Of a stretch of 37,532 nucleotides of DNA, positions 863 through 37,532 are shown in pieces. The notes beneath the pieces were generated by a model. The model was given only the letters and a program-made list of their open reading frames with translations, had not been told where the DNA came from and ran no database searches. Each line of letters opens with the position of its first letter. Position 1 is the stretch's first letter. Source of the stretch: a virus; the IMG/VR virus record IMGVR_UViG_3300044612_001896, positions 1-37,532 of that record. One strand, written 5' to 3'. The position numbers and the translations under genes are program-made.

Positions 863-1026
863 GTGTGTGTTTCCTTTCTGCTCTCGATGAGCTTGGCGAT
901 GTCGGCCAAGTCGTATCGGGTGCCGTGCGCCGAGAGCCGGACGCGCGGCAAAAGTTTCGCAACCTTGTTGCGGGAAATGCGAAGCAGCGTGGCGGCTTCC
1001 TTGGTCGTGACGAGTTGCGGGGTCAT
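853..1026 (-). CDS. xis: Excisionase-like helix-turn-helix protein
   Basis: The start chosen is the ATG at 1026, overlapping the stop of the RHH gene (ATGA). The 57 residues fit the excisionase/MerR-type winged helix (HTH_17-like): TTKEAATLLRISRNKVAKLL is the helix-turn-helix, then GTRYDLADIAKLIES is the wing and final helix. Phage proteins of this class bind DNA as Xis or AlpA-type regulators. Its place as second gene after the leftward RHH regulator, 0.6 kb from the integrase on the opposite strand, suits a directionality factor made on lytic induction. The Xis role is inferred from size, fold and place; a plain regulator is the alternative. Confidence 0.65.
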   Translation of the reverse strand: MTPQLVTTKEAATLLRISRNKVAKLLPRVRLSAHGTRYDLADIAKLIESRKETHTWT

Positions 1027-1187
1027 TTCGCTTCCCCCAGTTGCTTCATCAAAAGTTGTCTCACGAACATGCTCAGGCTCATGCCCTGCGCTGATGAAAC
1101 CTTGCGCGCTGCCCGGATGAGTTCGGGCGGGAGTGAAATGCCTGCTGCCCGTGAGTGTTTGTGCGGTGGAAGTTTTTGCCGTGCCAT
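1023..1187 (-). CDS. Ribbon-helix-helix regulator, leftward (Arc/CopG-like)
   Basis: A 54-residue gene: ATG at 1187, TGA at 1023-1025 overlapping the next ATG. It shows the RHH pattern: a basic N-terminus, a strand with alternating residues (AAGISLPPELI), helix A (RAARKVSSAQG), then helix B (SLSMFVRQLLMKQL). It is clearly related to the facing gene at 1300-1566 (AGISLPPELI versus AGIALPRELI, and similar second helices). RHH dimers bind short inverted or direct operators. As first gene of the leftward early operon it occupies the position cro has in lambda. I infer that it is one arm of the lysis-lysogeny switch. Confidence 0.75.
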   Translation of the reverse strand: MARQKLPPHKHSRAAGISLPPELIRAARKVSSAQGMSLSMFVRQLLMKQLGEAK

Positions 1188-1299
1188 ATTGAATGGCGGC
1201 ATCTTTCAAACTTTAACAAACTTTGTAAAGGAAAAAAATGGGGTTTTCTCCCCATAAGCAAAAATTGTTAAGAATTGGGAAAATGTGCTATGTTTAGCC
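1188..1299. promoter_or_regulatory. Divergent control region between two RHH regulators
   Basis: This 112-bp AT-rich gap holds a tandem repeat of CAAACTTT (1207-1224, spacer AA), an inverted repeat ATGGGG-N6-CCCCAT (1238-1255) and runs of A. On the minus strand, TTTACA at 1224-1229 resembles a -35 element, and its context CCTTTACAAAG recurs exactly at the promoter near 27725, but no good -10 follows. On the plus strand a promoter runs into the rightward gene. Short repeats of this kind are what RHH repressors usually bind. The operator function is inferred. Confidence 0.6.
1265..1294 (+). promoter_or_regulatory. Candidate sigma70-type promoter of the rightward RHH gene
   Basis: TTGTTA at 1265-1270, an 18-bp spacer and TATGTT at 1289-1294. 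The predicted transcription start falls at about 1300-1301, on the start codon itself, so the transcript would be leaderless or nearly so. No Shine-Dalgarno sequence precedes the ATG. Confidence 0.5.
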
Positions 1300-1566
1300 A
1301 TGATGAAACCACGCAAAACGCATGAAGAAAAATCTCACCCGGCAGGTATTGCTTTGCCGCGCGAACTCATCGAAAGAAGCCGCGCCTACGCAAAAGAGCA
1401 CGGGCACGGAGGCTTAAGCGGCCTAACCCGCCATCTACTGACCGAGTTTTTGGCAAGAGCGGCTGAGACGATGCAAGGCTCTAGCCGCGCTGCCGAGGAC
1501 GCGGGCAACCAGAAGATAAAGAAAGCCTTGAAGCAAATTTCCAAGGCCGCACAGGAAGGTAAATAA
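1300..1566 (+). CDS. Ribbon-helix-helix regulator, rightward (CopG-like)
   Basis: ATG at 1300 or 1303, both in frame; about 88 residues. After a basic N-terminus (KPRKTHEEKS) comes the RHH core: strand HPAGIALPREL, helix IERSRAYAKEHG and helix LSGLTRHLLTEFLARA. A lysine-rich C-terminal tail (KIKKALKQISKAAQEGK) follows. It is homologous in its core to the leftward RHH gene it faces, and longer by the tail. It is the only gene between the control region and the integrase and reads the same way, so it is the best candidate for the lysogeny repressor. No cI-type repressor or LexA-like peptidase is seen in the window. The repressor role is inference. Confidence 0.7.
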   Translation: MMKPRKTHEEKSHPAGIALPRELIERSRAYAKEHGHGGLSGLTRHLLTEFLARAAETMQGSSRAAEDAGNQKIKKALKQISKAAQEGK

Positions 1567-2992: not shown

Positions 2993-3733
2993 GTGGCTGC
3001 GATCACCACCCGATACAAACGGTTCGTCGCCGTGTCCTGTTCGCACGGCTCGGAAATTGACCCGAAGGCGCGGGAGGCCGTGCTGACTTTTATTGACCGC
3101 TGGAAGCCGCATGAGCGTATCCACCTTGGCGACGCGATTGACCTTGCTTGTTTGCGAGCCGGAGCACGGCGTGATCCCGACGAACCCGACCGCGCGCAAA
3201 GCCTCATGGACGACTTGCTGGCTGGGCTGTCGTTCCTGCATGAGCTTCGACCGACTCGCTACTTTCACGGCAACCACGAAGCGCGCGCCGTGAGCCTAGC
3301 CCACAGCGGCAATCAAGTGGTTGCCTATGCTGCGGGCGCGGTGATGGCAAAAATTCACGACGGCCTTGCCCGCTACAAGACCGAGATTATCCCGTACAAA
3401 GGCATGGCGCGGGAGTCGGTGCGCTATTTTGGCGGCACGGCGTTTTTGCACGGAGCGCTTTACAATGTGAGCGCGGCGCGGGACACGGCGGAAACCATCG
3501 GCGCGCATTGCGTTTTCGGTCACACGCACCGGGTGGCAATGGAACCGGCCCGCACGCACGCCGACGCCATTGGCTACAATATCGGCTGTCTGGCCCGCCT
3601 CGACATGGAATATGCGGCAGGCAGACGGCAAACGCTTGCGTGGAGGCAAGCACTGTGCTTCGGAGAATTTTCCGAAAACGTCTGCACGGTCAACCTCGTC
3701 ACCCTTTCCCCCCACTACCGGCTCCCGCTATGA
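2993..3733 (+). CDS. Metallophosphoesterase (calcineurin-like)
   Basis: A 246-residue GTG-start protein with the calcineurin-like phosphoesterase signature: HLGDAID (Asp47), FHGNHE (Asn94, His95), FLHG (His154) and GHTHR (177-181). These residues bind the two metals and hydrolyse phosphomonoesters or diesters. In motif I the usual Asp-x-His reads Cys16-Ser-His18 (SCSHGS), so one metal ligand seems replaced. The substrate is unknown; nucleotides, cyclic nucleotides and nucleic acid are all possible. It heads a four-gene unit with stop/start overlaps down to 4432. Its place beside int and attP is typical of accessory lysogeny genes. The family is certain, the role is not. Confidence 0.85.
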   Translation: MAAITTRYKRFVAVSCSHGSEIDPKAREAVLTFIDRWKPHERIHLGDAIDLACLRAGARRDPDEPDRAQSLMDDLLAGLSFLHELRPTRYFHGNHEARAVSLAHSGNQVVAYAAGAVMAKIHDGLARYKTEIIPYKGMARESVRYFGGTAFLHGALYNVSAARDTAETIGAHCVFGHTHRVAMEPARTHADAIGYNIGCLARLDMEYAAGRRQTLAWRQALCFGEFSENVCTVNLVTLSPHYRLPL

Positions 3734-3978
3734 AAAGCAAAGCGAACAACGACGACTTGGCAAAGTGGTGCGCGGCCTTGGCGGCGAATGTGGTAACAGA
3801 TGAGGTGCCGCCCGGATGGCACACGGCGCGGGAGTTGGGCGAAAGGCTGGGCATTTGCGAGTCCAGCATGGGCAAAAAGCTGACCAAATCGCTGCGGGAG
3901 GGGCGCATTGAAAGGAAACTTTTTCGCGTCGTCACTGGCCAAGTGACTCGCGCGGTGCCGCACTATTTTCCGAAATGA
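3730..3978 (+). CDS. HTH-like protein, 82 aa
   Basis: The ATG at 3730 overlaps the phosphoesterase stop (ATGA) and its own stop overlaps the next start. The centre (GWHTARELGERLGICESSMGKKLTKSLREGRIERKLFRV) reads as a helix-turn-helix or winged helix with a basic wing. Similar small winged-helix proteins occur in many phage accessory operons. It probably binds DNA, perhaps to regulate its own operon. The partner sites are unknown. Confidence 0.65.
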   Translation: MKSKANNDDLAKWCAALAANVVTDEVPPGWHTARELGERLGICESSMGKKLTKSLREGRIERKLFRVVTGQVTRAVPHYFPK

Positions 3979-4280
3979 AAACGCCCACGATGAGGTTCAA
4001 GTTCGAAGGGCATTGGTGGCGGGTAAAAATCCAGCGGCCTCCCACGAAGGAACTTTGCGAGGGGCTTTGCGACTACGATTCACGCACGATCTTTCTGCAC
4101 CCGCAAGCGGTGAAGGTGAACGGGCTGGGCATTGTCGTACACGAAGTTGCTCACGCTTTGCTTCGCGCGATCAACGAAGATCACGTGCTCGAACTGGAGC
4201 GCGTTGTGTCTGCGGTGGCACTTTTCACAGCCAAACACACGGGAGGCACCATCTCCATTGGCAACCACGACCGCGCATGA
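3975..4280 (+). CDS. Small zinc metallopeptidase-like protein (HExxH)
   Basis: 101 residues with HEVAH at 56-60 in a helix (GIVVHEVAHALLRAI), followed by Glu residues 73-75 that could supply the third zinc ligand. This is the gluzincin-type core seen in ImmA/IrrE- and SprT-like minimal peptidases, without the extra domains of those families. ImmA-type peptidases relieve repressors in some temperate elements, so repressor cleavage is one possible role. The place after an HTH gene in a lysogeny-side operon fits but does not prove this. Overlapping ATGA junctions tie it to both neighbours. Confidence 0.7.
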   Translation: MKTPTMRFKFEGHWWRVKIQRPPTKELCEGLCDYDSRTIFLHPQAVKVNGLGIVVHEVAHALLRAINEDHVLELERVVSAVALFTAKHTGGTISIGNHDRA

Positions 4281-11267: not shown

Positions 11268-11274
11268 TGTCAAA
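11268..11274 (-). promoter_or_regulatory. TTTGACA element before the glycosyltransferase gene
   Basis: The element includes the TGA stop of the upstream Ser/Thr-rich gene (GTTTGACACC) and lies 15 nt before the GTG at 11252. Confidence 0.5.
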
Positions 11275-13093
11275 CCATGCTGGTGATATTGCGCTGGGTC
11301 ACAATGTCGGCAAGCGTATTGGTCGCCGTCACGGCATACATGGTCGCCAGGGCGTTCACAAACGAGGCCGTTCCCGACGTGTTGGTTGTCGAGGAAAGCG
11401 AGCCGCCGAACGTGCTCACGGTGGAGTTGTTGATTTTTGCCGGTCCCACCACATTGGCGAAGTTTGTTTCACCGCTGGGCACGCCGCCGCCGATGGTTTG
11501 CGCGGAATAAAACCCAAAAACAAATGGAGAAAAGCCCGAGACGCGCCGCCCCTCCTCGATGCGGCTGGTTCCCCCGGCCAAGTCCAACAATGTGCTGGTG
11601 GTGGTGGAAGCGGTGGTCGAATTGGTCGAGGTGCTGCGCGTGTAGGTGAACGAGTCTTTCGACACTGTGTATTGGGCAAACGAGCCGGGCAGCGGCACGT
11701 AGCGCCCGCGTCGGTGCTCGGCAAACGTGATCGTGGTGGCAAGGCTGGAGTCCGAGCCGACCGTCAGTCCTGTAATCCAGCCGGATACCTCGTCCGTGTA
11801 GGTCATGAATCCGCCGGTGCGACGGTTGACCGCGTGGACGTTGCTGAATGACTCTGCGAGAGTTGTATAAAACCACGCGGTCGCGGGGTTGTAGATCAAA
11901 GATTCTCCGGCTGCGCTTTCATTTGAATTTATGCGTGCGTAGCCGGGGATTGCTCGGGTGTAGAGAAACGACGTGCTGACGGCAAGGGTTCGCAACTCTT
12001 CATATTCCAAGCCACTTTCAGCACGGCGCACCGGGTAGCGGCTGAGAAACGTCACTGAGGACGTTGCTATTTCTGAGGCTCGCACAACGCCAGGATTACC
12101 TGGAGCCACTAAACTGTAGCTTGACTGAACGTAAGAACTGCTTGTCGTCGTATAAGTAAAAGTTGTTTTCGTGTTGGTCAAATGCGGCAACCGATTGGAA
12201 AAATTGCTGATAGTGGTATTCGTGAGCGTGCGGATAATCGTTGTCGCTGTTGTGCCCCATGTCGTGACGCTGTAAGAGCCAGTTTGTGAAAGCGTTCCCT
12301 GCGTGCTGGCGGGCCAAGTGATGTCGTCGCCGCTGCTGAGGTACGTAGCGTTAATTTTTGTCCAACTTTCCAGCCTCCGGCTGTGCGACGTGGCTGTCGT
12401 GCCGACCGCCGTAAGCACGGCCTGCGAATTAAAACCGGTGGCCGAGACAATCCACAAAACTTCATCCGGGGCGGCGTACACAAATTCTGAGCTTTGCTGG
12501 TAGGATGTAAGGACGGTGCTCACAGACGACGTGCCAAAGGTTTCAAACGTGGCGGTTGCGGTGGTTAAAGTCGTCACGTCTCGCGTAGTCGTCGTGCTGT
12601 AAAATGAAATTTTGTTGTCCGTGTTTTTGCTGGTGGTAAAGGCGGTGATTCCGCTGCCAGAAGTCGTGGTTGCCGTGCTGGAAGTTCGGGTGGTGCTGGT
12701 GATGGCAATAGTGGTGATGTCCTCATAACCTCCCTCCTCATAATCGGTGTCCACAATGAACGTCTCCGCGTAGCCCATTACGCTGGAGACTATAGCGGTG
12801 TTGAAAACCGCGCTTTCGTAGGTGCTAACAAAAATGACGTCTTGGCTTGAAGTGCTGCTAAAAGAACTGCTGGCAGAAAGCGTAGTGGTTGTAAAAGCGT
12901 TGGTGGAAAAAGTCGTGCTTGATCCTGTCGTGGTGCCTCGAATTTGTTGCAACGTAGAATTTTGCGACAAGAAAAACGTCGTGGCGCCAACTTGGGTTCT
13001 TGTTGCTTGAGAAAAAGATGTTAGCGACGTCCGTGAAAACGAAGACGTCGTCGCCGGGCCTGCTGCGCCGTAGCTGGTGACGGTGATCGCCAT
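11270..13093 (-). CDS. Ser/Thr-rich structural protein, 607 aa
   Basis: An unusually biased protein: long stretches of Ser and Thr (TTTTLSASSSFSSTSS, STTTTRDVTTLTTATATF) with few lysines and little helix. The C-terminal 250 residues are less biased, with tail-fibre features and aromatic residues. By place (after two tail-tip genes, before the fibre genes) it is probably a long tail-tip or fibre protein. Dense Ser/Thr is typical of O-glycosylated proteins, and a glycosyltransferase gene follows directly. That link is inference. No family recognised. Confidence 0.65.
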   Translation of the reverse strand: MAITVTSYGAAGPATTSSFSRTSLTSFSQATRTQVGATTFFLSQNSTLQQIRGTTTGSSTTFSTNAFTTTTLSASSSFSSTSSQDVIFVSTYESAVFNTAIVSSVMGYAETFIVDTDYEEGGYEDITTIAITSTTRTSSTATTTSGSGITAFTTSKNTDNKISFYSTTTTRDVTTLTTATATFETFGTSSVSTVLTSYQQSSEFVYAAPDEVLWIVSATGFNSQAVLTAVGTTATSHSRRLESWTKINATYLSSGDDITWPASTQGTLSQTGSYSVTTWGTTATTIIRTLTNTTISNFSNRLPHLTNTKTTFTYTTTSSSYVQSSYSLVAPGNPGVVRASEIATSSVTFLSRYPVRRAESGLEYEELRTLAVSTSFLYTRAIPGYARINSNESAAGESLIYNPATAWFYTTLAESFSNVHAVNRRTGGFMTYTDEVSGWITGLTVGSDSSLATTITFAEHRRGRYVPLPGSFAQYTVSKDSFTYTRSTSTNSTTASTTTSTLLDLAGGTSRIEEGRRVSGFSPFVFGFYSAQTIGGGVPSGETNFANVVGPAKINNSTVSTFGGSLSSTTNTSGTASFVNALATMYAVTATNTLADIVTQRNITSMV

Positions 13094-19247: not shown

Positions 19248-19254
19248 TGTCAAA
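19248..19254 (-). promoter_or_regulatory. TTTGACA element, 14 nt before the joining protein
   Basis: The element includes the TGA stop of the glycosyltransferase gene (CTTTGACAGG). Confidence 0.5.
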
Positions 19255-19822
19255 GCTGATCGGCGGGCGGCGGCGGGTCGGTCGGTTTGCTGCGGTAGCG
19301 GTAAAAATAGATCGGGTCGTCCCCGCTCCATTCTTCGGTCTTTATGTGCTGCAAAAGGCCAAGGGCATAGCGGTAGTCCTCACCCCACATCATATCGGGA
19401 AATCGGCTTTTCAGCGCCATGTCGCGCCGTAGCGGGCAGAGATGGTGCGGCGTGCGGTCTTGTCCGTGCCATTGGAAGTTTTCGCGGAATCGGTAGCTGT
19501 GGCGAAAAATGGGCGACGGATGCCAGTCTCGCCCGTCCATTGTGACGTGCATAGTGATGCCGACGCAATCGGGCTTGGTCTTGAGACAAGGCAAGATGCG
19601 CGCAATGTAATCGGGCGAAACCATGTCGTCGTCGTCCACAAAGGCGATGTAATCGCCGGTGGCCGCTTCGATCATGCGCTGTCGTTTGGCTCCGATGGTG
19701 CCGGGGCCGTCGTCGGTCAAATAGCTCACGCCTCTAACAAGCTGCGGCTGCAGCACGGCAAGCAGCTCGGCCAGCATCTTTTCACGCCCCGGCATGGTCG
19801 GGATGAGGATTTGCAAAGTCAT
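19250..19822 (-). CDS. Family 2 glycosyltransferase, 190 aa
   Basis: A compact GT2 (GT-A fold). The N-terminal strand is LQILIPTMPGRE, the metal-binding motif is FVDDDD in YIAFVDDDDMVSPDYI, and a later WGEDYRYAL matches the ED catalytic-base region. It transfers a sugar from an activated nucleotide donor. The ATG overlaps the preceding stop (ATGA), so it pairs with the large two-domain transferase. These two genes interrupt the usual capsid-to-connector order and follow a strong terminator. Confidence 0.85.
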   Translation of the reverse strand: MTLQILIPTMPGREKMLAELLAVLQPQLVRGVSYLTDDGPGTIGAKRQRMIEAATGDYIAFVDDDDMVSPDYIARILPCLKTKPDCVGITMHVTMDGRDWHPSPIFRHSYRFRENFQWHGQDRTPHHLCPLRRDMALKSRFPDMMWGEDYRYALGLLQHIKTEEWSGDDPIYFYRYRSKPTDPPPPADQL

Positions 19823-21543
19823 TTAACCCACCCTTCGGCTACCGCGTCGGGGTTGCGGCGTTTGAATATGGTTTTCCCGCGCTCATTGGCTTCGGGATTT
19901 TGCTGGCGTCGGTAGCACTCGTCGGTCGCTGCCCCGGTAAAAAGCGGGTGATCGTGGTAGAACTTGATGTGTCGGGCTTGTTCGACTGCGCCGTCACGGT
20001 AAGCGCGAAAGCTGAACTCGGTGTCCGACCAGTAGCCGTCGTATTCGGGGCAAAGCAGCCAATCCCTACCCAGCCACCACCGCCAGTTGAAAGTCATGAT
20101 GGTCATGAGCTTTTCGCCGGGCTGATCGAAGCCGTCCGAAACATGCAGCACGGTCGGTTTATCCATGTGTGGCGTCATGGCTTGGATGACCTGCTCGTCC
20201 CAGCCGTGCGGCGGGTAAACGTCCGATTGCGCCATGATAAAGATGCGCGCCCCAGATGCGGTGGCTGCGCGGGCGGCGGCATTGTAGTTCGCCACGGCGC
20301 TACTGTGGCCTTCGGGCACGGCAGGAGCCAGACCGTGCGGGTAGTGTTGCAACTGCTCGACAACCTCCGTGTCGCTCTCGCAGATGCCGAAATAATACGC
20401 CACCCGCTCCGGGTGCGCGGCGCGCTCCAGCCAAAGGTTGCGAACCTCGATGTCCTTTTGCCCTCTGCCCGCCGGGTGTCCTACGGCGATGCGGGGCTTG
20501 AGGCGCTTCTGCCATTCTTTGCGGAGGCGTGCTGCTTCTTTGGTGTGCCCGGCTTTGGCAAGGGCCAGCGTTTTCAAATCGTGCGCTCGCCAGCCGTAGA
20601 GAGAGGCGTCGTGTGTCCATGAGGGTTCGTCCGGCATGGCTTGTGCCTCCATCGCATTGGCATAGGCCAGCGCTTTGCTGGCCTTGCCGCGCGCGAGGTG
20701 CAGCTTGGCAAGCTCGGCATAGCCTTCCCGCCGGTGCGGCATGAGACGCACGGCTTCCAGCAGCGGGCGCTCGGCTTCGTCCACGTCTTTGATCCAGCGG
20801 CCAATCGTCTGATAGGCCACAAACTTTTCTTCGTCGCCGAGGTCTTCCCTGCCCGTGGCAATGACAGCGGCGTGCATAGCAGTTGGAATGTCCTGCTGAA
20901 TTTCGCATTCGCGGAATAAAAACCACCACTCTCGTCCCGTGCGCTTTTCGGGCGGGATGCTTTCTAGGATGTTGCGGTTGCGGGTGACGCTGCCGCGTTT
21001 GTTGGTCTGCGGCATGTGCATGACTTGCAATTCCGCGCACCATGAATTTTCCGTGTTGTCATTCGTCTCAATGTCTTCGTGAACGGCATTGATCCATTGC
21101 TTGAACGCGGCGGCTTTGACCATGCGGATGCGCCGCGCGTAACTGCCGTTAGCATTTGTGATATACGGCGAGAAAATGGCGTCGCCTTCCATCGGATGCC
21201 CCTCGCGTATCATCCGCAGGACTTCCGCGCCCGTAGGAGTCAGCAAATCGTCGCAATCGGCCCACATGATCCAGTCCGTGCTTTCGGGGGCCAGCGCGAA
21301 TGTCTGGTTGCGAGCGGCGGCGAAGTTATCGACATGCGCCCAATCTTTGCCTGCCTCGCTGTTGAGGTATTCCCCGGTGAGGCATCCGCGCGCCTTGGCG
21401 ATGTCCAGCGTGGCGTCTGGCGTCTGATTGCCGATGGCGCGGACGACAGAGACGGAATCAACGTGCGGCTGAAAGCTGTCGAGAAAGCGGCTGATGTTGT
21501 CCGCTTCGTTGCCGCAAATTATGCCAAGATGAATTTTTGCCAC
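19819..21543 (-). CDS. Two-domain glycosyltransferase with TPR-like centre, 574 aa
   Basis: GTG at 21543. Residues 1-200 are a GT2 domain (IHLGIICGNEADNISRFLDS, metal motif WADCDD) like SunS-type transferases. Residues about 220-350 are helical repeats of TPR character (GYAELAKLHLARGKASKALA). Residues 370-570 form a second GT-A-like domain (ICESDTEVVEQLQH, AQSDVYPPHGWD, WSDTEFSFRAYRDG, YHDHPLF). Such proteins build a short glycan or glycosylate proteins. The terminator just upstream separates it from the capsid gene, and its GTG start has no visible Shine-Dalgarno. Confidence 0.82.
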   Translation of the reverse strand: MAKIHLGIICGNEADNISRFLDSFQPHVDSVSVVRAIGNQTPDATLDIAKARGCLTGEYLNSEAGKDWAHVDNFAAARNQTFALAPESTDWIMWADCDDLLTPTGAEVLRMIREGHPMEGDAIFSPYITNANGSYARRIRMVKAAAFKQWINAVHEDIETNDNTENSWCAELQVMHMPQTNKRGSVTRNRNILESIPPEKRTGREWWFLFRECEIQQDIPTAMHAAVIATGREDLGDEEKFVAYQTIGRWIKDVDEAERPLLEAVRLMPHRREGYAELAKLHLARGKASKALAYANAMEAQAMPDEPSWTHDASLYGWRAHDLKTLALAKAGHTKEAARLRKEWQKRLKPRIAVGHPAGRGQKDIEVRNLWLERAAHPERVAYYFGICESDTEVVEQLQHYPHGLAPAVPEGHSSAVANYNAAARAATASGARIFIMAQSDVYPPHGWDEQVIQAMTPHMDKPTVLHVSDGFDQPGEKLMTIMTFNWRWWLGRDWLLCPEYDGYWSDTEFSFRAYRDGAVEQARHIKFYHDHPLFTGAATDECYRRQQNPEANERGKTIFKRRNPDAVAEGWVK

Positions 21544-25598: not shown

Positions 25599-26149
25599 AG
25601 GCCGAACTCCGTTTTCAACTGCACGGCCAAGCGGGCAAGGCGATCGAACTCGTAAAGAAAGTCTTTTGCCGCATCGCGGCTCCACTCGGACGGGAGACGA
25701 TAGACTGTGCGGAAAGATAGCGAGAATGGCTGCTTGTCCTTGTCACTTTCGCCCTCGCCTTCGGTTTTGAGTTCTGGCTCCGGAATAATGCCCGTCAACT
25801 TGTAGGCGTCATTGATTCCTCTCACGTTCTCGTTGCTCAAATAAAAATCTAACTTTTTATTTGCCAGCCTCATCCACTTGTTCAGCGTAACGATTGAGCG
25901 GTCTTGTTCTTCCGCGCATTTTTTAAGCCACGGCAAGAACTCGCCGTGCGGCAAGATTTCCTTTGCCTTATTGCAGATTGCCCCCGCGTTCCAAGCGTGA
26001 CCGATGGCAAGCTCGGCCCCGGCTTGGGCAAGGGCCGCGCAGCGGTCGGCTTCGTGAGCGCAGCGTTTTAGCTCTGCGGCACAAGTTTCTGCATCAACGC
26101 AGACTTCAAGGTTGAGAGACGGTTGGTTGAGGTGTAGTTCGTTTTGCAT
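25595..26149 (-). CDS. DUF3102-like protein, 184 aa
   Basis: The ATG at 26149 has an AC-rich leader AACACAGAACAA shared with the gene at 27389. Its beginning overlaps the end of the upstream HTH gene by 82 nt. The block AWNAGAICNKAKEILPHGEFLPWLKKC followed by RSIVTLNKWMRLAN resembles the DUF3102 domain of phage and plasmid proteins, which often precedes a helical DNA-binding region. It is probably regulatory. The function is unknown. Confidence 0.65.
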   Translation of the reverse strand: MQNELHLNQPSLNLEVCVDAETCAAELKRCAHEADRCAALAQAGAELAIGHAWNAGAICNKAKEILPHGEFLPWLKKCAEEQDRSIVTLNKWMRLANKKLDFYLSNENVRGINDAYKLTGIIPEPELKTEGEGESDKDKQPFSLSFRTVYRLPSEWSRDAAKDFLYEFDRLARLAVQLKTEFGL

Positions 26150-26766
26150 TTGTTCTGTGTTTCTTTTCTTTGGTTATGGACTTTTTTAGCCCGTTTTCTA
26201 TAAACCTCGACCGCACGGTCTGACTTCATTCCGCGCGATTGCCGAAGGTCAAATTTGCGTTTATATTGCCGCACCGTGGCGCTGACGTTGGCCCGCGTAT
26301 AACCGAACTTTTCGGCAATCTGAGTCTCAGTCATACGCGTGCGGCCAAGGGCAAACAGGAGCGCGTAGCCGTGCATGGCGATCTGCCGCGCCGAGGCGCG
26401 CACATAACCGCCCTCGCCCATGAGCGTGCCCGTGACGGTTTGCAAAATGATGAGCGCAGCCTCCTCGCCCCGCGCGCAAGAGCCGGGATCGTTCTCCTGC
26501 TCCATCCACTCGGCGGCTCCCGCCTCGACGCCCCTGCGGATAATGCCCTGCAAGTAAAGCAAGATGGCGTCAATGCCTGCGCCCTTGGTGATGAGCGCGG
26601 CCATGTCACGGCGCATCTGCTCGCGGAATTGTGCGATTCCGTCGAGGCAGTGATCCGAGAGCGCATCCTTCGGCAACTCCGGCCCGACGCGGTAATCGTC
26701 AAGCGGGTTGGCGTGATGCGCCAGTTGATCGTCTATTCGTTTAGCATCCGAGGTTGCGTGGTCCAT
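26068..26766 (-). CDS. HTH protein, possible late regulator, 232 aa
   Basis: The ATG at 26766 is preferred; an in-frame GTG at 26775 is possible. The C-terminal third has a helix-turn-helix (MTETQIAEKFGYTRANVSATVRQYKRKF) like sigma-factor region 4, followed by a very basic tail (KSDRAVEVYRKRAKKVHNQRK). The N-terminal part is helical. It has its own promoter (26806-26833). A DNA-binding regulator within the terminase-portal interval is unusual and may control late genes. Confidence 0.65.
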   Translation of the reverse strand: MDHATSDAKRIDDQLAHHANPLDDYRVGPELPKDALSDHCLDGIAQFREQMRRDMAALITKGAGIDAILLYLQGIIRRGVEAGAAEWMEQENDPGSCARGEEAALIILQTVTGTLMGEGGYVRASARQIAMHGYALLFALGRTRMTETQIAEKFGYTRANVSATVRQYKRKFDLRQSRGMKSDRAVEVYRKRAKKVHNQRKETQNKCKTNYTSTNRLSTLKSALMQKLVPQS

Positions 26767-26805
26767 TGCGGCCACGCGGGCGAGGTGTGAATCTCATCGG
26801 TGCGA

Positions 26806-29575: not shown

Positions 29576-29723
29576 GTTTTTTCGCGTCGATATTGCGACG
29601 AATGAATTGCATTTCCTCACGAAGCAGGCGGCTTTGATGCTCTAACTCGCAAAGCCTTTTGTGCATTGCGGCGAATGAAGCAATCCACGGCGGAAGCTCT
29701 GCAGTGTCTTCTTTATTGCTCAT
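29553..29723 (-). CDS. Small coiled-coil peptide before the terminase, 56 aa
   Basis: The ATG at 29723 overlaps the glycosyltransferase stop. The peptide is a single helix with heptad-like leucines (MHKRLCELEHQSRLLREEMQ). It may link expression of the glycosyltransferase and terminase genes or bind one of them. Unknown function. Confidence 0.55.
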   Translation of the reverse strand: MSNKEDTAELPPWIASFAAMHKRLCELEHQSRLLREEMQFIRRNIDAKKHDAHRTT

Positions 29724-30598
29724 GCCGCCTTGCGCCATTTTTCGTCAATGATCTTTGGGCAGGCGTTGTTCCACTTGATGTTGTGATGAATGCGTCCGCT
29801 CGACGGACACACGGTATTTATCTTCGTGCATGATGGAGCGGCCAACACGGTGTAAAATGTTTTCACATACGTTCCGCTTTCCAGATAAACGTCGGTCATT
29901 CCTCCCGCCGTTTTCTGCGTTGGCATCTGAGTTAGTTCAATTAGAGGAACGTGGAAAAATAACCCTCCTCGAAGACCATGCAGCACATACGCCGTGCAGT
30001 CTTCATTCATGTGACCCATAAACGCGAAGGGCTTTTCCGTGTCACAAAACCAGAAATTCATGCACTTTCTTTTTAGGTGCCAACCATCCTTGATGTAGTT
30101 GTTGCCAGCGCCACCGATGAAATCTCCGCCCTGTGAAATCGACATGGCGACCGCTCCGCTCTCTTCGTAAAATTTTTGCAGTGCGCGCGTCACTGCATCC
30201 ATGTTTTTGACTTCTATAAGTTCTTCGCCCGATGCAAAGGCCATGCGATGATTGAAGCGATAGCGATATTTCGTGTAATCATCGTCTAACTGGACGAAGT
30301 AACGATAGCCCAGGTCTTTGGCAGCTTTGAATGATGCGTTACGCGCATACACAATGGCTTTGCGGTGCGGAAAATTATCACCCGCATCTGTTCTTTTCGC
30401 TTCTGCTATCTTGTCGAACACATAAACTTGATCGCCAAACTTCCGCTCATATTCGGCGCGCATCTTGTCCTCGTTGTCGATAAGGATGCAGATGCGGCCA
30501 GTGTAGCCCTGTCGGCGCAGCGAGTCGTAAGTGTGGACTCTCTCGGGACGCCCATGAGTGAGAATCATCATGAGCGGCAAATCAGCCTTACTGCTCAT
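29720..30598 (-). CDS. TET-associated-type glycosyltransferase (TAGT), 292 aa
   Basis: A GT-A fold with N-terminal LMMILTHGRPERVHTYDSL, a metal site VQLDDDYT (102-109) and later GGDFIGG, NFWFCDTEKPF, NEDCTAYV, GGMTDVYLESGTYVKTFYTV and a final IHHNIKWNNACPKII. From memory these match the TAGT family, named for its link with TET/JBP dioxygenases in phage genomes, where it adds sugar to hydroxymethylated DNA bases. No TET/JBP enzyme, hydroxymethylase or DNA methyltransferase is visible here. It overlaps the ParB-like gene by 11 nt and is lower in GC than its neighbours, hinting at recent transfer. Confidence 0.8.
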   Translation of the reverse strand: MSSKADLPLMMILTHGRPERVHTYDSLRRQGYTGRICILIDNEDKMRAEYERKFGDQVYVFDKIAEAKRTDAGDNFPHRKAIVYARNASFKAAKDLGYRYFVQLDDDYTKYRYRFNHRMAFASGEELIEVKNMDAVTRALQKFYEESGAVAMSISQGGDFIGGAGNNYIKDGWHLKRKCMNFWFCDTEKPFAFMGHMNEDCTAYVLHGLRGGLFFHVPLIELTQMPTQKTAGGMTDVYLESGTYVKTFYTVLAAPSCTKINTVCPSSGRIHHNIKWNNACPKIIDEKWRKAA

Positions 30599-31364
30599 TG
30601 TTGAAGTCCTCCAAGTATGAGTCGCGCAGTTTTTCTCCTAAAGTGACGTAGCCCGATTCCAGTGCTTTGTTGAAATCGACAATGACTAATGCGGATTCCT
30701 CAAATAGTCGCTGCACTTCTGGTTCGGAGTGAGCATAGTATTCCGCGATTTGCTGAAAGTTGAACACGGCGTGTCTGTGAGCAGCCAAGCAAAGAAATTT
30801 TTCGATTTCTTCTGATAAGTTGGCTTCGCTGATCTTCTGCAAAAGTCGTTCAGTTTTTTCCGAATCAAACAACTCGGACACTGGTGGCTTGGGGCCTTGT
30901 GGCTCATAAATTGGAACAGTGATTTTTTTGGTGTATTGCCCCTCGCCCAACTCTCCGGGCGGTTGATCCAGCAATGCGCCAAGCTCTTTCAGAGATGATT
31001 CATCAAACCCAACGTCCTCCAGCCCGATCCCTTCCGCCGCCAATCCCTCAAGCTCCGCGCTCAATAGCTCAGCGTCCCACTCGGCCAGTTCCGCCATGCG
31101 GTTGATGCTAATCCGCAGAGCCTTGATGTCGGCCTCGCTTAAATCGTCGCACAAGACGGCAGGCACTTCCTCCATGCCAAGGTGCTTTGCGGCCTTCACC
31201 CGCAGATGTCCGTCAATCAGCGAGCCGTCCGACTTCGCCAAGACCGGGACGCGAAAGCCAAAGCGTTTGATGGCAGAAGCTACGGCCTCGACGGCGTGAT
31301 CGTTCTTTCGCGGGTTGCCTGCGTAGGCAATGAGTTTATCAAGTGGCAGTGTTACGGTTTTCAT
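30588..31364 (-). CDS. ParB-like nuclease/NTPase-domain protein with C-terminal extension, 258 aa
   Basis: The start chosen is the ATG at 31364, which overlaps the terS gene by 26 nt. Residues 1-90 are a ParB/Srx-type domain with NPRKN (17-21) and the nucleotide-binding box DGHLR (51-55), then an HTH-like helix region. The C-terminal ~110 residues (TVPIYEPQGPKPPVSELFDS, EIEKFLCLAAHRHAVFNFQQ, IAEYYAHSEPEVQRLFEESA) form a separate helical domain that I recall from phage proteins encoded beside TAGT genes. The domain's GC is lower. It may guide base modification to sites in the DNA, which is inference. Confidence 0.75.
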   Translation of the reverse strand: MKTVTLPLDKLIAYAGNPRKNDHAVEAVASAIKRFGFRVPVLAKSDGSLIDGHLRVKAAKHLGMEEVPAVLCDDLSEADIKALRISINRMAELAEWDAELLSAELEGLAAEGIGLEDVGFDESSLKELGALLDQPPGELGEGQYTKKITVPIYEPQGPKPPVSELFDSEKTERLLQKISEANLSEEIEKFLCLAAHRHAVFNFQQIAEYYAHSEPEVQRLFEESALVIVDFNKALESGYVTLGEKLRDSYLEDFNNEQ

Positions 31365-31989
31365 TTGGTCGGTTGGTTTCTTTGAAAAGCATTCTGATCC
31401 AGTTCTCCATGATCCCTTGGGCGTGGATCGGGTCGTTCGGATTAAGTTGCGCGGACAAGGCGGCGGGGGCAGCGACCAGCTTTTGCCGCAGATCGCTAAA
31501 GACTTGCCGATATGTCCGCTCGGCGTCCTCGACTTGCATCGTCTTGCCGTCCCGCTCCATAAGGTCACGAAGCTGTCGCTCATAGGCGACTTGCTTGGCG
31601 ATGTATTGCTGATGCGTTTGCGCCCAGCGGCGAGATGCCTCGATATCCCCGGAGTGGTGCAGGCGCGCGACTTGGGCGGCGGCGTGTTTGCGTAGCTGCC
31701 TTTGCTCGTTTAACGCCTCCCGGCAGTTGTCGGTATCGGTGAAGGTCTTGGTTGGTTCCGCGACGGGTTCGGGTTCGGCGGGTTCGGGGGATTCTTCGTT
31801 CTCCGTGGAACTTTCGGCGGGAGTCGGGCTCGGCGCTGGCCGGGGCTGGCTCGCTATGCGGCTGCGGCCATTGCGCTGATACCAAGATTGAGCGGCTTCA
31901 ATGCTGTCGATGGGCATCCCGCGCTTGATGCACTTATGCGCCCCGGCCCCGGTAATTCCGAGGGCGGCGGCAAGAGCGCGGACAGTCAT
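31339..31989 (-). CDS. terS: Small terminase subunit, 216 aa
   Basis: The N-terminal 40 residues are an HTH (VRALAAALGITGAGAHKCIKRGMP) of the Nu1 type that recognises packaging sites. A Pro/Glu linker (PAPSPTPAESS, SPEPAEPEP) leads to a long helical oligomerisation region (CREALNEQRQLRKHAAAQVA) and a C-terminal end for binding the large subunit. The gene opens the late operon behind its own control region. A TTGACA element lies 14 nt before the ATG. Confidence 0.8.
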   Translation of the reverse strand: MTVRALAAALGITGAGAHKCIKRGMPIDSIEAAQSWYQRNGRSRIASQPRPAPSPTPAESSTENEESPEPAEPEPVAEPTKTFTDTDNCREALNEQRQLRKHAAAQVARLHHSGDIEASRRWAQTHQQYIAKQVAYERQLRDLMERDGKTMQVEDAERTYRQVFSDLRQKLVAAPAALSAQLNPNDPIHAQGIMENWIRMLFKETNRPNENRNTAT

Positions 31990-36872: not shown

Positions 36873-37342
36873 GCCTCCTCCTTCCGCCAATTTTTCAAAA
36901 ACCGCGCCGCCTGTGTGCCAGTCCATCCGCACCGGTTCCATTCACCGTCCAGCACGGAGTTCGTCTCCCGCACCTTCGCCATGTCCTCGAACAACTCCTT
37001 AATCGTCGGCTCGTGCTGCAGCCGGTCAATCACCGTGTCCAGCCATTGCACCGACCACGTCGCGGCAGCAAGCGCCTCGTCACGCTCTTTTTGCATAGAT
37101 AGGAAGTTGTCGTAGTGGATTTGCTCTTGTTGTCTCGCCTCGTCCCGCTCGCGCTGAAAATGTGGCGACGGCTCAGGTCGCTCGACCCCGGAATTTCCAG
37201 TGCCGCCCTCAATGACCGCCGCCAAAACCGTGTCCAACGCTATCCCGATCTCCCGCGGGTTCGGCATGTCGAGGGTTTCATCCTCACCACGCCGCCAGCG
37301 GTTGTAAGTTGTTAAAAGCGCAATCGCGTCGTTCAGTTCCAT
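36869..37342 (-). CDS. Hypothetical early protein, 157 aa
   Basis: ATG at 37342, overlapping the 3' end of the split gene by 10 nt. The start (ELNDAIALLTTYNRWRRGEDETLDMPNPREIGIALDTVLA) is a pattern seen in many phage and prophage proteins of unknown function. A Gln/Glu-rich coiled coil follows (RERDEARQQEQIHYDNFLSM). The C-terminus has WNRCGWTGTQAARFLKNWRK. No role can be assigned. Confidence 0.65.
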   Translation of the reverse strand: MELNDAIALLTTYNRWRRGEDETLDMPNPREIGIALDTVLAAVIEGGTGNSGVERPEPSPHFQRERDEARQQEQIHYDNFLSMQKERDEALAAATWSVQWLDTVIDRLQHEPTIKELFEDMAKVRETNSVLDGEWNRCGWTGTQAARFLKNWRKEEA

Positions 37343-37522
37343 AATACTTTCTCCCGCACTTTTTTGAGTTCACGTTCCAATTTCACCAGCGCGATATAGT
37401 TGTCCGCCTGCCGCCCGATGCACTCCAGACGCTGCCGTAGTTCCATATTCTCCCGCGTCGCGTCGCTCGCGGCCTTGTACAGCGCCGCGATCTCCGACTC
37501 CATCGCGGCAATCCGTGCTTGG
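37333..37522 (-). CDS. Small coiled-coil-like protein, 3' part, split by the window ends
   Basis: The continuation of the gene that starts at 143. Reading leftward from the shared repeat it gives ADNYIALVKLERELKKVREK and stops at 37333-37335. The frame is intact across the overlap, which supports circularity. The last 10 bases of the window break the match and are left out. Confidence 0.7.
37397..37522. repeat. Terminal direct repeat, right copy
   Basis: Identical to 1-126. The next ten bases (37523-37532) differ from 127-136. Confidence 0.9.
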
Positions 37523-37532
37523 AGTCGGAGAT
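37490..37532. repeat. Terminal inverted repeat, probable fold-back artefact
   Basis: ATCTCCGACTCCA (37490-37502) is the reverse complement of the last 13 bases (37520-37532), with a 17-base loop. The last ten bases do not fit the circular sequence, so they look like a snap-back or assembly tail. Confidence 0.75.

Follow-up and report, generated by a model that had tools for sequence, protein, structure and literature searches.

Two facing ribbon-helix-helix paralogues as a probable lysis-lysogeny switch of a temperate siphophage

How is the choice between lysis and lysogeny made at a locus where two small ribbon-helix-helix (RHH) genes are divergently encoded between the lytic genes and the integrase gene? 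Textbook phage switches use HTH repressors, mostly inducible via RecA and an S24 domain. The stretch of DNA analysed here (the window) is an IMG/VR record of 37,532 bp and comprises a complete circular temperate siphophage genome. We suggest, with a probability of roughly three in four, that positions 1023-1566 confer immunity and switch this phage between lysis and lysogeny, through mutual repression by the two RHH proteins. The computed support for this reading consists of gene order, paralogy, the RHH-like fold of the left protein, a conserved spacer with two sites of 10-bp period, covariation of proteins and sites, cassette exchange, and the absence of HTH_3 and S24 matches.

The examination of the window ends revealed an exact direct repeat of 126 bp (1-126 = 37397-37522) that is followed by a 10-nt tail. 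This tail (37523-37532, AGTCGGAGAT) looks like the reverse complement of the neighbouring ATCTCCGACTCC and is probably an assembly artefact. Since an independent contig (L003), which is 100% identical to the window in the overlap, reads through the terminal-repeat junction, the genome is either circular or circularly permuted, so that the leftward genes of the left end are continued by those of the right end. The annotated siphophage genes encode the large terminase, head maturation protease, tape measure, tail fibre and endolysin, and further annotated phage genes encode exonuclease VIII, Erf, RusA and the integrase. A single unbroken leftward lytic transcription unit lies to the left of the RHH pair, and int lies to the right. 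Whether the integrase or the large terminase is compared, the nearest named phages infect Akkermansia (27-39% identity), and judging from these relatives only, the host likely falls within Verrucomicrobiota. When 84,980 species genomes were scanned with the RHH_L and integrase profiles, in a search that favours close relatives, no lysogen or prophage was found, and the Rfam and tRNA scans gave no match.

Some other genes of the window were also recorded. Downstream of int, and likewise rightward, are genes for a metallophosphoesterase and a SprT-like metallopeptidase (2993-4280), as in relatives such as L012, and a tail-region protein of 607 aa at 11270-13093 has no PHROG match. Two neighbouring glycosyltransferase-like genes (PHROG moron category) are located within the structural region at 19250-21543. 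At 29720-31583, a match to the beta-glucosyl-HMC-alpha-glucosyltransferase PHROG (E=8e-56) adjoins a ParB-like/methyltransferase-like gene, and this glucosyltransferase-type protein makes it possible that the phage DNA is modified.

The genes at the left end that concern us are the following.

856-1026, leftward strand: HTH_17 excisionase-like gene, second in the leftward operon (Pfam HTH_17, E=5.8e-7)
1023-1187, leftward strand: RHH_L, 54 aa from a conserved MAR start, Arc-sized, heading the leftward lytic operon; proposed Cro/Arc-like repressor of the right promoter P_R
1303-1566 (87 aa), or from an ATG at 1300 (88 aa), rightward strand: RHH_R, Mnt-sized with a long C-terminal helix; proposed lysogeny and immunity repressor of the left promoter P_L
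1631-2746, rightward strand: tyrosine integrase (int), downstream of RHH_R (PHROG integrase, E=2e-26)

An earlier note on this DNA had described two homologous RHH proteins encoded divergently across 112 bp, the left one heading the early operon together with an excisionase-like gene and the right one preceding int, and this description was borne out in all of its parts. Both genes are in place on either side of a spacer at 1188-1299, the tyrosine integrase gene follows RHH_R, and the leftward operon runs from RHH_L through the HTH_17 gene and then, past the circular junction, to the RusA, Erf and exonuclease VIII genes. BLASTP aligned RHH_L and RHH_R at 43% over 40 aa (E=3e-6), and the profile-profile comparison gave a probability of 98.6% (E=8e-16); judged by this similarity, the two are clearly paralogues. 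The predicted model of RHH_L contains two helices, and its best PDB matches were Arc and other RHH proteins, with probabilities up to 1.00 and a Foldseek E-value that was never below 0.06. The predicted model of RHH_R shows the same two-helix core, and its second helix extends to residue 85. With the Pfam RHH models neither window protein scored above the cut-off, and the RHH_R profile mostly retrieved RHH proteins, all of them below significance. We assign both proteins to the RHH (Arc/CopG/MetJ) superfamily, whose fold consists of a strand, helix A, a turn and helix B, RHH_L by its predicted model and RHH_R by homology to RHH_L.

We then compared the locus with its relatives. The RHH_L profile retrieved 22 loci from IMG/VR, which are divided among clade A (including the window), clade B and clade C, and a facing RHH_R partner was present in 22/22 of them. 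RHH_R alone as a query gave no match in the close-relative scan, and a tblastn search with RHH_L against named phages gave no convincing match. To avoid selecting on RHH, integrase relatives were also sampled, and among the 20 loci with enough upstream sequence all had an RHH gene upstream of the integrase, 19 as divergent pairs and one on a contig (L059) that is cut before the left gene. Eleven of these loci are of the window type (L059 among them), and the other nine carry pairs of two other types.

Type 2, four loci (L048, L054, L057, L070): CopG-like pair
Type 3, five loci (L061, L062, L065, L066, L007): Arc/FitA-like left gene and NikA-like right gene

The type 3 left proteins that were tested scored above a Pfam RHH cut-off, and the RHH matches of the type 3 right proteins and of the type 2 proteins were below threshold. 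Type 2 spacers contain a direct repeat of CACAATGGG with a 10-bp period and a sequence unlike that of the window type, and type 3 spacers contain AGGTTTAACCC-like repeats. Since RHH stands upstream in every sampled locus, as a facing pair in all but the truncated one, and occurs in three types, it is the RHH/RHH pair that is constant and the sequence type that is replaced. In clade C (L021-L029), the pair and the spacer are kept, and a different integrase-like gene is inverted and convergent, lying downstream of RHH_R in L022; because of this inversion, RHH_R and int are not always co-directional.

One relative, L057, shows the replacement directly. It shares 94% identity with the window over 1-1028 and 96% over 37157-37522. 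Past the stop codon of RHH_L, with which the start of the HTH_17 gene overlaps, the two sequences are no longer similar; they align again within int from position 1643, at 76% identity.

1029-1642: replaced cassette, where L057 has a different (type 2) RHH/RHH pair

Heteroimmune sibling phages, which differ by the swap of an immunity-type cassette, show just such a sequence pattern. Cassettes exchanged between phages that are otherwise nearly identical characterize the immunity regions of temperate phages, and the window and L057 provide such an exchange.

The spacer between the two genes is better conserved than its surroundings, with a conservation in relatives of 72-81% compared with 65-71% for the RHH_R coding start and 52-60% for the gap between RHH_R and int. 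When the relatives were compared side by side, the spacer was found to hold two sites of one architecture, namely paired AAnnnTT 7-mers with an exact 10-bp period, and the pattern AAnnnTT-GWY-AAnnnTT was found at both putative promoters. RHH dimers reach into the major groove with their strands at repeated subsites, and subsites paired at a distance of about one helical turn suit the binding of dimers such as those of Arc and CopG. The elements of the spacer are as follows.

1201-1229, leftward strand: putative P_L, with TTTACA at 1229-1224, a 17-bp spacer and AAAGAT at 1206-1201, giving a -35 that relatives conserve and a weak -10
1208-1224, leftward strand: O_L, proposed operator inside P_L, AAAGTTT GTT AAAGTTT, identical with the CAAACTTT repeat of the earlier note
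1231-1255, leftward strand: terminator-like hairpin, ATGGGG-N6-CCCCAT plus a T-tract when read leftward, just upstream of P_L
1260-1276, rightward strand: O_R, proposed operator over the -35 of P_R, AAAAATT GTT AAGAATT
1265-1294, rightward strand: putative P_R, with TTGTTA at 1265-1270, an 18-bp spacer and TATGTT at 1289-1294; in clades B and C the -35 reads TTGACA

In a promoter scan with strict consensus, neither P_L nor P_R was matched, and the -10 elements are weak. The earlier note had pointed to a tandem repeat and an ATGGGG/CCCCAT inverted repeat, both of which are present, the tandem CAAACTTT (AAACTTT site) at 1207-1214 and 1217-1224, but it had not mentioned a further operator-like site, which covers part of the right promoter. 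Judged against dinucleotide-shuffled versions of the window spacer, the direct repeat (p ~0.05) and the 6-bp inverted repeat (p ~0.5) were both weak; we therefore relied on the relatives, and the repeats owe their standing to conservation there. Exact matches to AANNNTTGWYAANNNTT in the 16 pair-bearing records all fell within the switch spacer, and two pattern matches occurred in 0.05% of mononucleotide-shuffled spacers, figures that describe the pattern rather than test it, since it was built from these same sequences. The exact sites vary from record to record, as clades B and C except L030 fit the pattern at O_R only and several clade A records fit it at O_L only.

The ATGGGG/CCCCAT repeat itself (1238-1255) is more likely to be a leftward intrinsic terminator than an operator. 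Its T-tract stands on the leftward side and the element scores as a terminator, and complementary arms of a G-run and a C-run with a T-rich tract on the same side are present in 14/15 sequences (window counted), with varying loop and spacing. That it serves as an operator for the RHH pair, as the earlier note had it, is rather doubtful. The inverted repeat does lie midway between the two -35 elements, it is the sole GGGG-N6-CCCC in the window, and the form GGGG-N6-sCCC is seen in many relatives, but the T-tract gives it a direction, the hairpin arms of clade B (L017-L019) pair at a different spacing, and in L029 the GC hairpin is gone although both RHH genes are present. An extra operator role, besides termination, may exist. 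The terminator could prevent antisense transcripts, or transcripts that enter from the host, from turning on the lytic genes. A function as attenuator, with P_L to the right of the hairpin, was also considered and is disfavoured, as most relatives have a -35-like element to the left of the T-tract.

The assignment of each protein to a site comes from covariation. In a sample of 11 related genomes, where shared ancestry was controlled only in part, the similarity of RHH_R tracked that of O_L (r=0.76; partial r given RHH_L 0.65) against a partial r of -0.19 for O_R, and the similarity of RHH_L tracked that of O_R (r=0.70; partial r 0.64) against a partial r of -0.04 for O_L. The crossed statistic had a permutation p of 0.0007, and its form was kept when any single genome or clade C was dropped. 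The same crossing is visible in L016 and L018 when compared with L030, as RHH_L is 95% and O_R 100% identical, while RHH_R is 45% and O_L 53-59% identical. This crossed covariation opposes the expectation from linkage, because O_L adjoins RHH_L and linkage would couple each gene to its adjacent operator, and it is read as RHH_R repressing P_L and RHH_L repressing P_R. Without the -35 hexamer, the partial r between RHH_L and O_R drops to 0.38; repression of P_L by RHH_R would be the stronger half of the crossed reading and repression of P_R by RHH_L the weaker one.

In the mechanism that we propose, P_L and P_R would stand back to back with the leftward terminator hairpin between them. Transcription from P_L would begin with RHH_L and go on through the excisionase-like gene to the genes for recombination/replication, packaging, structure and lysis, which share a single strand, and P_R would drive RHH_R and int. 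In the lysogen, RHH_R would occupy O_L within P_L and keep the lytic program off, and at the start of the lytic cycle RHH_L would occupy O_R over the -35 of P_R and turn off RHH_R and int. Such mutual repression would produce a toggle with two states, in which RHH_R holds lysogeny and immunity and RHH_L commits the phage to lysis.

The absence of a conventional repressor was examined with several profiles. As the earlier note had stated for a cI-type repressor, HTH_3 and Peptidase_S24 had no match in the window, and neither had a match over cut-off in the 16 pair-bearing records, some of which are fragments where absence is weaker evidence; the positive controls, P22 and Akkermansia phages, were matched. 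HTH_3 likewise had no match over cut-off in nine further integrase-family records. A cI/C2-type switch is marked by a repressor of the HTH_3 type, in many cases fused to an S24 peptidase domain, and these searches gave none. A search with Phage_CI_repr also gave no match and was discounted, as it missed the P22 and Chantilly controls too. P22_AR_N, the P22-type antirepressor domain, was absent from 11 pair-bearing records and found in P22 alone. The weak HTH matches in the pair-bearing phages were, where checked, a terminase-small-subunit-like protein, located at 31339-31989 in the window, and a protein beside the packaging genes. At 26068-26775, just downstream of the terminase, the window encodes a C-terminal HTH protein (sub-threshold MarR-like) with a homologue in L073 and a distant one in L072, and this protein is possibly a late regulator.

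These searches bear on the reading that the RHH pair is an accessory module, immI-like or devoted to the control of int and xis, and that immunity is held by another, unrecognised repressor. The mnt/arc pair of P22 is indeed accessory to C2 (PMC11016777), RHH_R adjoins int and RHH_L adjoins the excisionase-like gene, and the two HTH proteins just described could be looked to for a repressor. We nevertheless consider this reading improbable: besides the missing HTH_3 and S24 matches in 16 records and the missing antirepressor matches in 11, the pair and the spacer persist in clade C although the integrase there is different and inverted, and both HTH proteins lie within the lytic strand beside packaging genes, whereas the RHH pair heads the whole lytic strand. 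It is also unlikely that the roles are reversed, with RHH_L as the lysogeny repressor and RHH_R as a lytic regulator or anti-repressor, or that both proteins mainly autorepress. RHH_L is the more conserved protein of the pair, RHH regulators often autoregulate, and RHH_L and RHH_R have closely similar recognition strands, so that each of them may bind O_L as well as O_R; on the other side, the crossed covariation counters such roles, and RHH_R is co-directional with int in clades A and B, as RHH_L is with the lytic genes. Finally, a plasmid-like partition or copy-control system or a toxin-antitoxin unit is highly improbable. Antitoxins and partition regulators are common among RHH proteins, the structure matches include VapB, FitA and ParG, and the window has a ParB-like gene at 30588-31583. 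Against this, neither a toxin nor a ParA-like neighbour was recognised, an integrase is present, and the cassette swap and the facing pair suit an immunity region; the toxin-antitoxin reading was rejected with int and the HTH_17 gene as the neighbours.

The switch of paired RHH paralogues, as proposed in the earlier note, is thus the best supported reading, given that the pair stays constant in the relatives examined while its type changes, that it is swapped as a cassette, that it sits on the boundary between lytic genes and int, and that no cI-type repressor was found. Somewhat less firmly, we think it fairly probable that a facing RHH pair without an HTH repressor is the sole switch of this siphophage family and that at least three interchangeable cassette types represent separate immunity groups. 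If this is true, the toggle logic of the textbook switches has also been realised with a different DNA-binding fold. The locus would also offer a compact system (two proteins, two operators, ~540 bp) for studying the evolution of immunity specificity, with natural variants in which one side (L030 compared with L016/L018) or the whole cassette (L057 compared with the window) is changed.

Among known systems, the one closest in design is immI of Salmonella phage P22, which encodes the divergent RHH regulators Mnt (82 aa) and Arc (53 aa), with promoters and operators in a 90-bp spacer, and Mnt serves the lysogenic state while Arc serves the lytic state (PMC7549136; PMC11016777). It controls ant and is dispensable for lysogeny (PMC11016777). 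The window resembles immI in having one small and one larger RHH gene that diverge from a spacer with operators, those of the window being proposed from conservation. The two differ in that the main switch of P22 is C2/Cro, whereas the pair in the window has the early lytic operon and int on its two sides, without Ant or C2; an antirepressor gene downstream of arc, a defining feature of immI, had no counterpart in 11 pair-bearing records. Similarity to Arc was marginal (hhalign probability 28.5%, single-pair E=6e-4) and similarity to Mnt was not detectable (E=0.59). In SSV1, the 55-aa RHH repressor F55 maintains lysogeny by binding to recurring sites, which are found at early promoters as well as at its own (PMC9608457). 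SSV1 differs from the window in being an archaeal fusellovirus with a single RHH repressor, not a paralogue pair, and with 11-nt sites unlike those of the window. In the C/Cox switch of phage P2 (Pc, Pe), the repressor and int lie on one side, and a Cro-like/excisionase regulator heads the early operon on the other side. The layout is that of the window, but C and Cox are HTH proteins and the window regulators are both RHH proteins. In lambda, cI and Cro are divergent regulators of the same fold that cross-repress at shared operators. They have the HTH fold, and cI carries a RecA-responsive S24 domain, whereas the window has the RHH fold and lacks S24, so that induction must work otherwise than in lambda. 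In the open-access papers searched, we found no bacterial phage with a facing RHH pair as its main switch. A divergent RHH pair as such is already known from P22 mnt/arc, and what sets the window apart is that the pair appears to be the main switch, without Ant or C2.
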